Below are positions 2,338 through 6,051 of a DNA stretch of 12,025 bases, piece by piece. The translations under genes and the position numbers were made by a program. The notes beneath the pieces are model-generated. The model was given only the letters and a program-made list of their open reading frames with translations, was not told where the DNA came from and searched no databases. Numbering within the stretch: the first letter of the stretch is position 1; each line of letters begins with the position of its first letter. Origin of the DNA: Bacillota bacterium (lineage in GTDB: Bacteria; Bacillota_A; Clostridia; Lachnospirales; Lachnospiraceae); contig JAEZTQ010000039.1 of the NCBI GenBank assembly GCA_023443625.1, positions 1-12,025 of the forward strand, given 5' to 3'.

Positions 2338-2371
2338 GAGTTGGTTACAACTGTGATTGTGAGACGTAAAT

Positions 2372-2417
2372 AAAAACCGATGTAATATTCAGTTCATCTG
2401 ATATCACGTCGGTTTTT
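2372..2417 (+). terminator. Intrinsic terminator of the padR-pspC operon
   Basis: A 12-bp stem (2372-2383 with 2406-2417, one G-U pair) closes a loop that can itself pair (ATAT/CAG with CTG/ATA). The stem begins with five A and ends with five T, so it has a U-tract on either strand and could also stop leftward transcription leaving the receiver gene. Confidence 0.8.
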
Positions 2418-2439
2418 AATTTAAGCTTTGTTCATACTA

Positions 2440-2530
2440 ACAGTACATGCCTTCCCTTTGAGTTAGTTTGTGCCGAGGATTACGCAGGCACAAACTTCTA
2501 GGTGTGAAAATTGCTTTTTATTTTCACACT
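2440..2530. repeat. 91-bp tandem repeat, unit 1
   Basis: The first of two adjacent 91-bp units that are identical at every base. Each unit holds two perfect hairpins. The first pairs AGTTTGTGCC (2465-2474) with GGCACAAACT (2487-2496) around a 12-nt loop. The second pairs GTGTGAAAA (2502-2510) with TTTTCACAC (2521-2529) around a 10-nt loop. Neither is followed by a T-run on either strand, so they do not look like ordinary terminators. The length is not a multiple of three and no reading frame is convincing. The block sits between the convergent pspC and receiver genes. Confidence 0.95.
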
Positions 2531-2621
2531 ACAGTACATGCCTTCCCTTTGAGTTAGTTTGTGCCGAGGATTACGCAGGCACAAACTTCTAGGTGTGAAA
2601 ATTGCTTTTTATTTTCACACT
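2531..2621. repeat. 91-bp tandem repeat, unit 2, reaching into a stop codon
   Basis: An exact copy of 2440-2530, directly abutting it, with the same two hairpins at 2556-2565/2578-2587 and 2593-2601/2612-2620. The last bases are part of the TAG stop (2622-2620) of the leftward receiver gene, so the second hairpin begins inside that stop codon. Because the unit starts at the stop (minus-strand reading), a TAG also recurs at the junction (2531-2529). Complete identity implies a recent duplication or active homogenisation. Confidence 0.95.
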
Positions 2622-2982
2622 ATGCATTAAGCACTTTGTTGATTATATCGATAATCTGAGGAGCTTCGAAAGGTTTAGCAAGGAATTCAGCAGCACCATA
2701 TTTTAATGCATCTACCATTTTGGATTTCTGACCAGCAGCAGTAACCATTACAACCTTGGCATTTTTGTCATATTCCATAATTGTCTTTAATGCTTCTAAT
2801 CCATCCATAACAGGCATTGTAATGTCCATTGTAGTTATATCAGGATTTAATTCTTTGTATTTTTCTAATCCTTCTACGCCGTTAGTAGCATCACCAACAA
2901 CGATATGACCATTTTCTTCCAATATTCCTCTCAGAATTTTACGTGATGTTTTGGAATCATCTACCAAAAGAATTTTTGCCAT
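2620..2982 (-). CDS. Stand-alone CheY-like response regulator receiver
   Basis: A 120-residue single-domain receiver with no output domain. The catalytic set is complete: acidic pair D8-D9, phospho-acceptor D53 (in TMDITMPVMDG), T81 and K103 (in LAKPF), so it should be phosphorylated by a histidine kinase and signal by protein contact, as CheY does. It lies 13 nt downstream of the CheX-type gene and is probably co-transcribed with it; the ribosome site is a G-rich AGGGGGA (2989-2995). No kinase, MCP or flagellar gene is nearby, so whether it acts in chemotaxis or elsewhere cannot be decided from the window. Clostridial annotations often call such proteins CheY, but the symbol is withheld because several paralogues are usual. 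The stop codon lies in the 91-bp repeat. Confidence 0.92.
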   Translation of the reverse strand: MAKILLVDDSKTSRKILRGILEENGHIVVGDATNGVEGLEKYKELNPDITTMDITMPVMDGLEALKTIMEYDKNAKVVMVTAAGQKSKMVDALKYGAAEFLAKPFEAPQIIDIINKVLNA

Positions 2983-2995
2983 AGCTTTTTTCCCC

Positions 2996-3883
2996 CTAAT
3001 CTATTTCGAATAAACTGTCTACTGCGATGAGTAGATCAGATTGTTTGCCACCAATTATTATTGGTATAACCATCAGTTCCCTCTTTGTAGTAATCTTTTT
3101 CTTTGTATAGAAAAGTGGAGGGGTCATATCGATATGGATGTCTTCTTGGCTTAGCTTAGATGCATACAATCCGTTGGTGCAATTAATGAATTCACATACA
3201 GAATCAAAAGCATCTTCATCCATTGTTACAAATTCTTCTTTTGCAAAGGGATTAGCAATGGATAATAACTCGTCGCTCTTACTGGCAAATCCTACGAAAA
3301 ATTCATGATCACCAACCATCTTCTGATAAGCGATAATACCGGCTTCATACTCCTGCGTAATATAAGAGGTTTTGATTATAATATTGTTACTGATAAAACG
3401 AACTATATTGCGAAGGAAAAGGCTGATGCAGTCACCGCTAAGTGATGTGGGATCCTGTATAAATACGGGAATGATACGATCAATATCTCCTGATTTTAAA
3501 GCATCTATATCTGATTTAGAAAAACCATTTTCTGTACGATATTCCTCTAAATATGTTTCAATTTCCTCAAGGGTTAATATATTATGCTCACTTACCACTT
3601 GTACAAACTGAAGGTAAGGATTCCCCTGCATATTCAATAGATATGTAACTTCTTCTGCAAGAAGATAACCCTTCTCTATAGCTATGTCACCAAAACGGCT
3701 GTCCAATTTACGCTGGATATCATTAATCTCCTCTGCCTGTCTGGTAGTCAGTAATTTCTCTGATACAGCAATTAGCCCTAATTTAACCCTAGCTTTCTGT
3801 TGAAGATTCATGACTTCATCAAATTGGGATTGAGAAATTTTATTCTTTTCTACTAAGTAATTACCAAAAAATAGCCCGAACAT
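2996..3883 (-). CDS. MshEN-like repeats fused to a CheX-type phosphatase domain
   Basis: A 295-residue cytoplasmic protein. The C-terminal half (about 150-295) resembles the CheX/CheC/FliY phosphatase fold, with the signature ExxN as E231-F-I-N234; this family dephosphorylates CheY-P. The N-terminus holds tandem helical repeats of exactly 29 residues. FG/LG doublets fall at 6-7, 35-36 and 64-65, each followed 21 residues later by Gln (Q28, Q57, Q86), with a weaker fourth copy from 92. That 24-residue motif plus 5-residue spacer is the layout of the c-di-GMP-binding MshEN (T2SSE_N) domain. The third copy is closest (R63-F64-G65); the first lacks the Arg. The chosen start (M-F-G-L-F-F) has AAAGGAG seven bases upstream; an in-frame ATG 35 codons earlier has none. 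The receiver downstream is the likely substrate. Phosphatase activity and c-di-GMP binding are inferences. Confidence 0.8.
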   Translation of the reverse strand: MFGLFFGNYLVEKNKISQSQFDEVMNLQQKARVKLGLIAVSEKLLTTRQAEEINDIQRKLDSRFGDIAIEKGYLLAEEVTYLLNMQGNPYLQFVQVVSEHNILTLEEIETYLEEYRTENGFSKSDIDALKSGDIDRIIPVFIQDPTSLSGDCISLFLRNIVRFISNNIIIKTSYITQEYEAGIIAYQKMVGDHEFFVGFASKSDELLSIANPFAKEEFVTMDEDAFDSVCEFINCTNGLYASKLSQEDIHIDMTPPLFYTKKKITTKRELMVIPIIIGGKQSDLLIAVDSLFEID

Positions 3884-3890
3884 GATATTT

Positions 3891-3897
3891 CTCCTTT
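3891..3897 (-). promoter_or_regulatory. Ribosome site fixing the CheX-type start
   Basis: AAAGGAG on the minus strand, seven nucleotides before the ATG at 3883-3881. It selects the 295-residue form over the 330-residue reading that starts at 3988. A small hairpin (TTCAGA 3903-3908 with TCTGAA 3914-3919) stands just upstream in the leader. No convincing -35/-10 pair was found on this strand further up. Confidence 0.7.
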
Positions 3898-4212
3898 CGT
3901 GATTCAGATAATCTCTGAACATTCCAATTAACGAGAAAATCCATCTTATGTACCCCCATACACTATACATACAAGTAAAGTACTCCACACTTTCTTGTTA
4001 CATAGAAATCTCTTTAGAATGTTAATATAAGATTAATATACAACATTTTATATGAAAAAAATAGTCTTTATTTTAAAATTATACAAATATTTAAAAATAT
4101 AGTAAATATTATAAAATGGGATTCAAATAATAGTTATTACAGTTTGGCCAATAAAGAAGGAAAAATTTATTCTTATATGATGACAACCAAGTTTTTGTAT
4201 GTTAAAGTATTG

Positions 4213-4241
4213 TTTAAATTAATATGAATATTTAGTATAAA
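4213..4241 (+). promoter_or_regulatory. Candidate argS promoter
   Basis: TTTAAA (4213-4218) and TATAAA (4236-4241) are spaced by exactly 17 bp and match the vegetative consensus at 4/6 and 5/6 positions. The start point would be near 4248, giving a leader of about 30 nt. The region is so AT-rich that chance matches are likely. A short CGCT/AGCG hairpin (4252-4265) would lie at the 5' end of the transcript. Confidence 0.4.
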
Positions 4242-4268
4242 TATTTATGGCGCTATATAGAGCGTTAT

Positions 4269-4273
4269 GGAGG
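4269..4273 (+). promoter_or_regulatory. Ribosome site fixing the argS start
   Basis: GGAGG lies five nucleotides before the ATG at 4279. An in-frame ATG at 4267 overlaps this ribosome site and so is unlikely to be used; the shorter form is chosen. Confidence 0.75.
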
Positions 4274-4278
4274 TAATA

Positions 4279-6051
4279 ATGAAGACAATTATCGAACTAA
4301 TTACAGAAGAAGTGAGAGAGGCTTTTAAGGCAAAGGGGTTTGAAGAGAAGTATGGTATGGTGACCATATCCAATCGTCCTGATTTATGCCAGTACCAATG
4401 TAATGGTGCCTTGGCAGCTGCTAAGCAGTATAAAACAGCACCCATTAAAATTGCCCAGGAGATTACAGAAGCCCTGTGTAACAGTAAATCTTTTAAAGAA
4501 ATTTCAGCAATCATGCCTGGATTTATTAATATTTCAATAAGTGATGATTTTTTAGCAGATTATTTAAATAAGATGAAGAATTCGGAACAATTTGGATGTG
4601 AGAAAGTTCAAAATCCACAGAAAATCCTTATCGATTACGGCGGTCCCAATATCGCAAAGCCATTGCATATCGGACATATGCGTTCTGCCATCATTGGTGA
4701 GAGTATCAAAAGACTTCTACGCTTTTGCGGACATGAAGTGATTGGTGATGTACATTTGGGAGACTGGGGTACCCAGATGGGCTTGATTATTGCAGAACTG
4801 AAAAGACGTAAGCCGGATTTGATTTATTTTGATGATAATTATGAAGGGGAGTATCCCAAGGAAGCCCCCTTTACTATTACGGAATTAGAAGAAATCTATC
4901 CTGCTGCCAGCGAATATTCTAAGGAATATCCAGAATTCCGTGAAGAGGCAAAGCAGATAACCTATCTTCTCCAGAATGGACATAGAGGCTATACAGCCAT
5001 CTGGAACCATATGATGGAGGTATCGGTAGCAGATGTTAAAAGAATTTATAATAACTTAGATGTATCCTTTGAGCTTTGGAAGAAGGAAAGTGATGTACAA
5101 CCTTATATTCCTCAGATGGTTCAGTATTTGAAAGATAATAACTATACTCGTATTAGTGAAGGAGCTTTGGTAGTTGATGTTAAAGAGGAGACAGATACCA
5201 AAGAGATCCCCCCTTGCATCATTCTAAAATCTGATGGAGCTGCTCTTTACAATACCACTGACTTGGCAACAATTCTTGAGCGTATGGAGCTCTTTAATCC
5301 GGATCATATTATCTACGTTACAGATAAACGCCAGGAATTATATTTTGAGACAGTATTTCGTTGTGCAAGAAAGACAAAGCTCATTAATGAGAACACGAAG
5401 TTAACTCATATTGGTTATGGTACCATGAACGGTAAGGATGGAAAACCTTTTAAGACAAGAGAAGGCGGCGTTATGCGCCTTGAGAACTTAATCAAGAGCG
5501 TTAATGAAGAAGTTTATCGCAAAATCATGGAAAACCGGAATATGGAGGAAGAGGAAGCCAGAGGAATTGCTGCACAGGTAGGTCTTGCTGCCCTTAAATA
5601 CGGGGACTTATCCAATCAGGTATCAAAGGATTATATCTTTGATTTGGAACGATTTACTTCCTTTGAAGGTGATACTGGACCTTATATTCTCTATACAATC
5701 GTTCGTATTAAATCCATTTTGGCTAAATTTGAAGAACTCAATAAGGAGAAGATTGGAGGCAACTTTACTATTCTACCCGCAGAGACTGGGGCAGAGCAGA
5801 CTTTAATGTTGGAACTTACTAAGTTTAGCGAGATGATTCATAGTGCTTATGAAGAAATAGCACCTCATCGTATCTGTGCATATATTTATGATTTAGCCAA
5901 TGCTTTTAATAGCTTCTATCATAATACAAAGATTATTACAGAAGAGGATATGAATAGACAATCCTCCTGGATTGGTTTAATTACTTTGGTTCAAAATCTA
6001 TTACTAACCTGCATAGATTTATTAGGCTTTGATGCACCAGAAAGAATGTAG
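4279..6051 (+). CDS. argS: Arginyl-tRNA synthetase
   Basis: A 590-residue cytoplasmic class I aminoacyl-tRNA synthetase that charges tRNA-Arg with arginine using ATP. The N-terminal Add1 domain (about 1-90) contains the SNRPDLCQYQCNGAL block (31-45), which contacts the tRNA elbow in this family. The catalytic Rossmann fold carries HIGH exactly (H130-H133, in KPLHIGHMRSA) and GDVHLGDWGTQMG (156-168). As usual for ArgRS the KMSKS loop is degenerate, here GKPFKTR (388-394). The C-terminal DALR anticodon-binding domain fills the last 130 or so residues. Length is normal for bacterial ArgRS, with no truncation. It is the first gene of a run of five co-directional genes; the next starts 47 nt after its stop. 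No T-box leader is present, so arginine-responsive control of that kind is unlikely. Confidence 0.97.
   Translation: MKTIIELITEEVREAFKAKGFEEKYGMVTISNRPDLCQYQCNGALAAAKQYKTAPIKIAQEITEALCNSKSFKEISAIMPGFINISISDDFLADYLNKMKNSEQFGCEKVQNPQKILIDYGGPNIAKPLHIGHMRSAIIGESIKRLLRFCGHEVIGDVHLGDWGTQMGLIIAELKRRKPDLIYFDDNYEGEYPKEAPFTITELEEIYPAASEYSKEYPEFREEAKQITYLLQNGHRGYTAIWNHMMEVSVADVKRIYNNLDVSFELWKKESDVQPYIPQMVQYLKDNNYTRISEGALVVDVKEETDTKEIPPCIILKSDGAALYNTTDLATILERMELFNPDHIIYVTDKRQELYFETVFRCARKTKLINENTKLTHIGYGTMNGKDGKPFKTREGGVMRLENLIKSVNEEVYRKIMENRNMEEEEARGIAAQVGLAALKYGDLSNQVSKDYIFDLERFTSFEGDTGPYILYTIVRIKSILAKFEELNKEKIGGNFTILPAETGAEQTLMLELTKFSEMIHSAYEEIAPHRICAYIYDLANAFNSFYHNTKIITEEDMNRQSSWIGLITLVQNLLLTCIDLLGFDAPERM

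Follow-up and report, generated by a model that had tools for sequence, protein, structure and literature searches.

The window analyzed here, a 12,025-nt stretch of a Lachnospiraceae genome (contig JAEZTQ010000039.1), carries at positions 2996 to 3883 a gene for a 295-residue protein. We interpret this protein as a CheX-type phosphatase of phosphorylated CheY with a four-copy MshEN-like repeat, on which cyclic di-GMP (c-di-GMP) would modulate dephosphorylation of the receiver encoded by the neighboring gene. We put this interpretation at somewhat better than even odds (roughly 55%); these odds and those of the alternatives weighed below overlap and do not sum to one. Our computations established the fold of the protein, its kept ligand-contact residues, the pairing and fusion of its gene with a receiver gene, and the co-occurrence of the family with CheA, FliM, and GGDEF proteins. 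The features of the gene pair are as follows.

2996..3883, minus strand: MshEN-repeat CheX protein (P0001), 295 amino acids (aa), assigned by profile matches above curated cutoffs and an AF2 model
3800..3871, minus strand: motif copy 1 (24 residues, 5-28; FFG...Q), degenerate, with an aromatic residue at position 1
3713..3784, minus strand: copy 2, residues 34-57 (KLG...Q), A50 and N54 in place of Leu and Leu; half 1 of the predicted c-di-GMP site
3626..3697, minus strand: copy 3, residues 63-86 (RFGD...Q); near-canonical half 2 of the predicted c-di-GMP site
3539..3610, minus strand: copy 4, residues 92-115, helical, without the motif Gly and Gln
3014..3454, minus strand: CheX phosphatase fold, residues 144-290
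3182..3193, minus strand: catalytic-type ExxN motif, E231-F-I-N234, by residue check
2620..2982, minus strand: CheY-like partner receiver, 120 aa (Pfam Response_reg, 105.1 bits)

The N-terminal repeat

Residues 1-121 consist of four helix-turn-helix units with a period of exactly 29 residues. The fold prediction places eight helices here, two per copy, and the AF2 model of the 295-aa protein has a pLDDT of 93.3 and a pTM of 0.84. An initial annotation, made from the DNA alone, had described exact 29-residue repeats, with [FL]G doublets at residues 6-7, 35-36, and 64-65, Gln at 28, 57, and 86, and a weaker fourth copy. The translation, which begins MFGLFFG, has all of these residues, together with a further doublet at 2-3 and 14 Gln overall. 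The period proved exact and the sequences did not, as copies 1 to 3 share 5 to 6 of 24 residues pairwise. The two best periods in a BLOSUM self-comparison of residues 1-121 were 58 and 29, and none of 5,000 shuffles reached the period-29 score or, in a separate count (0/5,000), the best score over periods 10 to 60. The fourth copy is indeed the weaker one: shuffles equaled its match to copies 3, 1, and 2 in 10, 134, and 162 of 5,000 trials, respectively.

We followed conservation in alignments A1 (47 of the 120 sequences listed among 956 homologs), A2 (51 rows, the window protein and 50 of 80 loci, with L037 dropped for a stop and others for truncation or similarity), and A3 (55 rows, down to 35% identity in the repeat region). 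The contact positions of copy 1 drift, and Q28 is kept in 31 of 55 members. Q95 in copy 4 is invariant (55/55), although that copy lacks the c-di-GMP motif.

The predicted c-di-GMP pocket

Profiles and structure both bore out the proposed relation of the repeat to MshEN. NCBIfam model NF053729 scored 40.4 bits against a cutoff of 38, a profile of 51 members matched PDB entry 5htl over residues 29-87 (E value of 2.5e-5), and the predicted structure superposed on c-di-GMP-bound MshE and PilF GSPII-B. Residues 30-89 of the model overlay MshE residues 5-64, with a predicted four-helix MshEN_N fold. Pfam PF05157 was not among the matches to the 295-aa protein at an E value of ≤10. Matches to the fumarase C tail, DUF4388, and EpsG were discounted as cross-matches because those models also match pilus-type MshEN domains.

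The MshEN geometry of two 24-residue motifs with a 5-residue joint stood, and the near-canonical pair was reassigned to copies 2 and 3 (K34...Q57 and R63...Q86), with copy 1 drifting. Copies 1 and 2 as the binding site ranked behind this pair in profile alignment, superposition, and contact conservation, despite the best NF053729 stretch being residues 6-52. At ten contact positions (34, 35, 36, 57, 63, 64, 65, 79, 83, and 86), 53 to 55 of the 55 members agree with the extended consensus. Conservation at these positions is 0.94, versus 0.64 for the rest of residues 30-89, and 2 of 20,000 random sets were as conserved.

The initial annotation had cautioned that the motif Arg is clear in copy 3 alone. 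The residue differences are real (Lys in copy 2, an aromatic residue in copy 1), but the threat to binding they were taken to pose is mostly allayed by published variants. In PilF, the dissociation constant (K_D) is 6 nM with the wild-type K167, 150 nM with K167R, and 2 nM with K167L (PMC11731258). The missing Arg is thus a minor worry, since Lys or Leu at position 1 binds the PilF ligand more tightly than Arg.

Other features do weigh against binding. The window protein follows the (R/K/L)LG...L...L..Q consensus at 10 of 12 ligand-contact positions; at the other two, A50/N54 stand in for the first-motif Leu pair, which in MshE is Leu25 and Leu29, both facing Gua1. In copy 2, Lys (K43) takes the place of the turn Gly. 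The A50/N54/F64 (A-N-F) signature recurs in 43 of 55 members, while at either first-motif Leu position 19 of 20 pilus-type MshENs from the same clade carry Leu. In MshE, single changes of the conserved hydrophobic residues cost at least 10-fold in binding, and two or three nearly abolish it (PMC5013675). Judged from the residues, A50/N54, rather than the missing Arg, is the real doubt about c-di-GMP binding; Phe64 may take up the space that Ala50 leaves free. Members L078-L080, which form one clade, additionally lack K34, Gly36, and Gln57 yet retain the receiver, a pattern that disfavors c-di-GMP binding being universal in the family.

In one alternative, the repeat is an MshEN relic, now too degenerate to bind c-di-GMP, that serves as a structural arm or protein-protein docking module, for dimerization or for placement at the C-ring or receptor array, leaving CheX constitutively active on its partner. 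Most proteins of the window's type do carry A50/N54 facing Gua1, the L078-L080 losses fit, and XpsE (PMC5013675) and PilF GSPII-A (PMC12002112) provide precedents for a fold kept without binding. We nevertheless consider a relic unlikely, as the ten contacts fit the consensus almost throughout and stand above their surroundings, which a scaffold would not obviously need, though some of them also stabilize the fold; GGDEF genes also adjoin some members.

The CheX domain and distant relatives

The C-terminal domain is assigned to CheX by Pfam PF13690, at 34.5 bits against a cutoff of 27 over residues 184-268, and by the predicted CheX fold of the model. All 51 A2 members match PF13690 at an E value of ≤0.01. 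The ExxN motif claimed at E231-N234 was located as E231-F-I-N234 within this domain. Both E231 and N234 are invariant in the 51 A2 rows, partly found via a pattern over the same motif; the 80 loci behind A2 were retrieved with patterns over residues 71-79 or 231-239, so these searches themselves account in part for the conservation of G72, V79, E231, and N234 there. In an unbiased fetch, Glu was present in 23 of 24 proteins of the window's type, and Asn in 40 of 40 members overall. The CheX assignment is supported, and CheY dephosphorylation is predicted from the gene pairing and fusions described below.

A distant subfamily of 16 members (L129-L143 and L148) has the receiver gene upstream in 15 and keeps Gly36 (16/16), Gln57 (15/16), Phe64 (16/16), and Gln86 (16/16). 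Position 50 is Val in 14 of 16, position 54 has no fixed residue, and Asp replaces the catalytic Glu231 in 15 of 16. In a test of six proteins, the c-di-GMP motif scored 57 to 94 bits in four of this subfamily and one more distant member of the window's type. A divergent homolog, L087:509-1423 (G115), lacks the motif glycines in copies 2 and 3 and, by eye, has Asp for the catalytic Glu; no receiver open reading frame (ORF) of ≥60 aa was found within the 508 nt fetched downstream, and L087 was excluded from counts.

The partner receiver and natural fusions

The receiver gene starts 13 nt downstream of the CheX gene on the minus strand. Among the 80 pattern-found loci, a receiver gene is next on the same strand in 77, with a gap of -40 to 148 nt from mechanically called starts; of the other three, L070 is fused and L032 and L077 stop at a contig edge. 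As an unbiased test, we used 48 full-length members from 47 carriers in an even sample of 150 genomes, for which completeness is not given; partial or one-domain matches (e.g., G030, G092, G115, and G127) were excluded from member counts. The receiver lay downstream in 27, was fused in 5, and lay directly upstream in 15; no adjacent receiver was found for the second copy in G100. Adjacency or fusion in 47 of 48 members agrees with the initial annotation, which had pointed to the adjacent receiver as the partner. D8, D9, D53, and K103 are kept in 78 of 78 receivers and T81 in 77, with Ser in the other, giving the conserved D-D-D-T/S-K residues of a stand-alone CheY-type receiver.

Seven natural CheX-receiver fusions were seen (P0052, L070, and L081-L085). 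All seven match Pfam Response_reg and three match Pfam CheX at an E value of ≤1e-5; by eye, the Glu and Asn of ExxN are kept in L070 and L081-L085. A single origin suffices on the tree for these six. The P0052 fusion, 67% identical to the window protein and outside the tree, looks like a second origin.

We also compared the partner with the flagellar-operon CheY. Four of five genomes checked have another short CheY-like gene, 40 to 46% identical, no more than about 2 kb from fliM, and in those genomes the neighbor receiver is outside the flagellar operon; the partner is distinct from the operon CheY. This arrangement is compatible with a second alternative, in which c-di-GMP is bound but steers localization or partner choice, or CheX serves the operon CheY or several CheYs with the neighbor receiver as a regulatory subunit. 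The Asp-for-Glu exchange in the distant subfamily would likewise fit a binding rather than hydrolyzing role there. We find this alternative, which shares the binding step with our preferred interpretation, doubtful: a receiver adjacent or fused in either order in nearly every member points to the neighbor as the main partner.

Genome context

CheA is present in 46 of 47 carrier genomes versus 37 of 103 others (Fisher P = 1.7e-14) and FliM in 42 of 47 versus 38 of 103 (P = 6.5e-10, with two weak matches, G056 and G145, excluded), both tests being uncorrected for kinship. GGDEF domains (4 to 52 matches per genome), FliM, and CheA were all present in the 14 carrier genomes tested. A non-chemotaxis role had been considered from the position of the gene outside flagellar operons and its occurrence in Herbinix hemicellulosilytica; it was set aside, as that same genome (G002) has FliM and CheA.

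We sought adjacent GGDEF genes by BLAST with one GGDEF domain as the query. Of 71 loci whose upstream sequence exceeds 1.5 kb, five (L045, L048, L053, L056, and L069) have a divergent GGDEF gene 66 to 180 nt away, and 20 further upstream stretches, one of them nearly empty, yielded two more such neighbors, G083 (L094) and G016 (L101). The window's own locus has no GGDEF neighbor. At L070, with 1.4 kb upstream, the end of the GGDEF gene overlaps the start of the CheX-receiver fusion. Pfam reported GGDEF for L070 and GGDEF-EAL for L048, L053, and L069. On a 60-member tree, the seven GGDEF-labeled cases are L070 and one clade; parsimony counts four changes, and the unlabeled rows L044 and L050 of that clade cannot be judged, having just 1.0 to 1.2 kb upstream. 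With about two independent events, the GGDEF association is suggestive rather than proven. The L070 protein (L070:33-1412) joins GGDEF to an ABC-type substrate-binding domain, and with the overlapping MshEN-CheX-receiver fusion it possibly forms a make-and-sense unit.

A pocket that reads a different or hybrid cyclic dinucleotide through a Gua1 half remodeled at A50, N54, and F64 would account for the consistent A-N-F in place of L-L-L/I, and MshE itself binds cGAMP weakly (PMC5013675), but we regard it as very improbable, since base recognition in MshE runs through main-chain amides at the Gly and the residue after it (PMC5013675), that Gly is kept, and GGDEF domains occur in every carrier genome tested (cGAMP and c-di-AMP synthases were not searched for).

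Proposed mechanism

In our preferred interpretation, copies 2 and 3 would form a single four-helix c-di-GMP pocket, with copies 1 and 4 flanking it and connecting it to CheX. The substrate would be the neighbor-encoded receiver, probably phosphorylated at D53, most likely by CheA and otherwise by another kinase. Binding of c-di-GMP to the repeat would alter docking of CheX Glu231/Asn234 into the receiver and thereby set the duration of receiver phosphorylation, by activation or by inhibition. Tentatively, a dedicated CheX phosphatase whose MshEN pocket is remodeled and asymmetric could let c-di-GMP directly determine how long a CheY-type regulator stays phosphorylated. If so, second-messenger control would act at the dephosphorylation step of a phosphorelay.

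Gene call, relatives, and neighboring features

A 330-aa ORF with a GTG start was dropped because a good ribosome site (AGGAG) supports the ATG at 3883 and relatives are mostly 294 to 296 aa (among the 120 listed of 956 homologs). The closest named relatives among the matches listed are Herbinix and Mobilitalea, which would make a Lachnospiraceae-type clostridium the most likely source of the window. A full-length member is present in 13 of 291 genomes of a class-wide sample. One 61% identical member (L022) lies in a record titled Anaerolineaceae, outside Bacillota, either by transfer or because its contig was mis-binned.

No Rfam family matched the 12,025-nt window at gathering thresholds, and promoter and terminator signals in 2340-4300 were no stronger than in shuffles. 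A 91-bp unit is repeated 2.1 times at 2431-2622 (98% match), just past the receiver gene, and by eye holds hairpin-like stretches (GTGTGAAAA...TTTTCACAC). It may be a terminator or small element that was duplicated, or a duplication made by the assembly. Positions 288-2338 encode a PadR regulator, a HAAS-domain membrane protein, a DUF4097 toastrack protein, and then a short ORF that we take to be PspC-like. This gene set resembles a PadR-controlled envelope operon.

Comparison with known systems

The closest structural counterpart is the MshEN domain of Vibrio cholerae MshE (5HTL; PMC5013675), which has the same 29-residue period, two helix-turn-helix motifs, and four-helix bundle; its Gly, Gln, and most hydrophobic contacts are retained in the window protein. 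The latter differs in that it has four copies, its model lacks the alpha/beta MshEN_C subdomain, it carries Lys for the first Arg, A50/N54 for Leu25/Leu29, and Phe64 for Leu39, and its repeat is joined to CheX rather than to an ATPase. The A50/N54/F64 signature would also probe how far the MshEN consensus stretches. Thermus thermophilus PilF GSPII-B shares Lys at position 1 of the first motif (K_D as above; PMC11731258), but keeps both first-motif Leu and belongs to a pilus ATPase. CheX of Thermotoga maritima and Borrelia burgdorferi (1SQU and 3HZH) shares the fold and the ExxN position; those solved chains, of about 155 to 172 residues, match residues 144-290 alone and have no N-terminal repeat.

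The MshEN-CheX combination is itself known in kind since 2016, when Wang et al. named the same association in one sentence (PMC5013675); the available text of that article neither pairs CheX with a receiver nor reports an experiment on a CheX protein. Beyond that sentence, the papers listed by literature searches included, judged by titles and abstract beginnings, no study of an MshEN-CheX protein, and none on the four-copy repeat, the remodeled half-site, the near-fixed receiver partner with its fusions, or the adjacency to c-di-GMP enzymes.

The route from c-di-GMP to chemotaxis is just partly known. In Caulobacter, the Cle proteins likewise bring c-di-GMP to bear on CheY-type output (PMC5677366), but there it binds an Arg-rich extension of the CheY-like protein, whereas here the predicted sensor is on the phosphatase. 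According to a Borrelia review, the constant flexing of a cheX mutant is also seen when pdeB and plzA are both mutated, and control of CheX or CheY3 through PlzA is suggested there (PMC4013479). With predicted sensor and phosphatase in one chain, the window protein would make the idea of c-di-GMP acting on CheX directly testable with two purified proteins.
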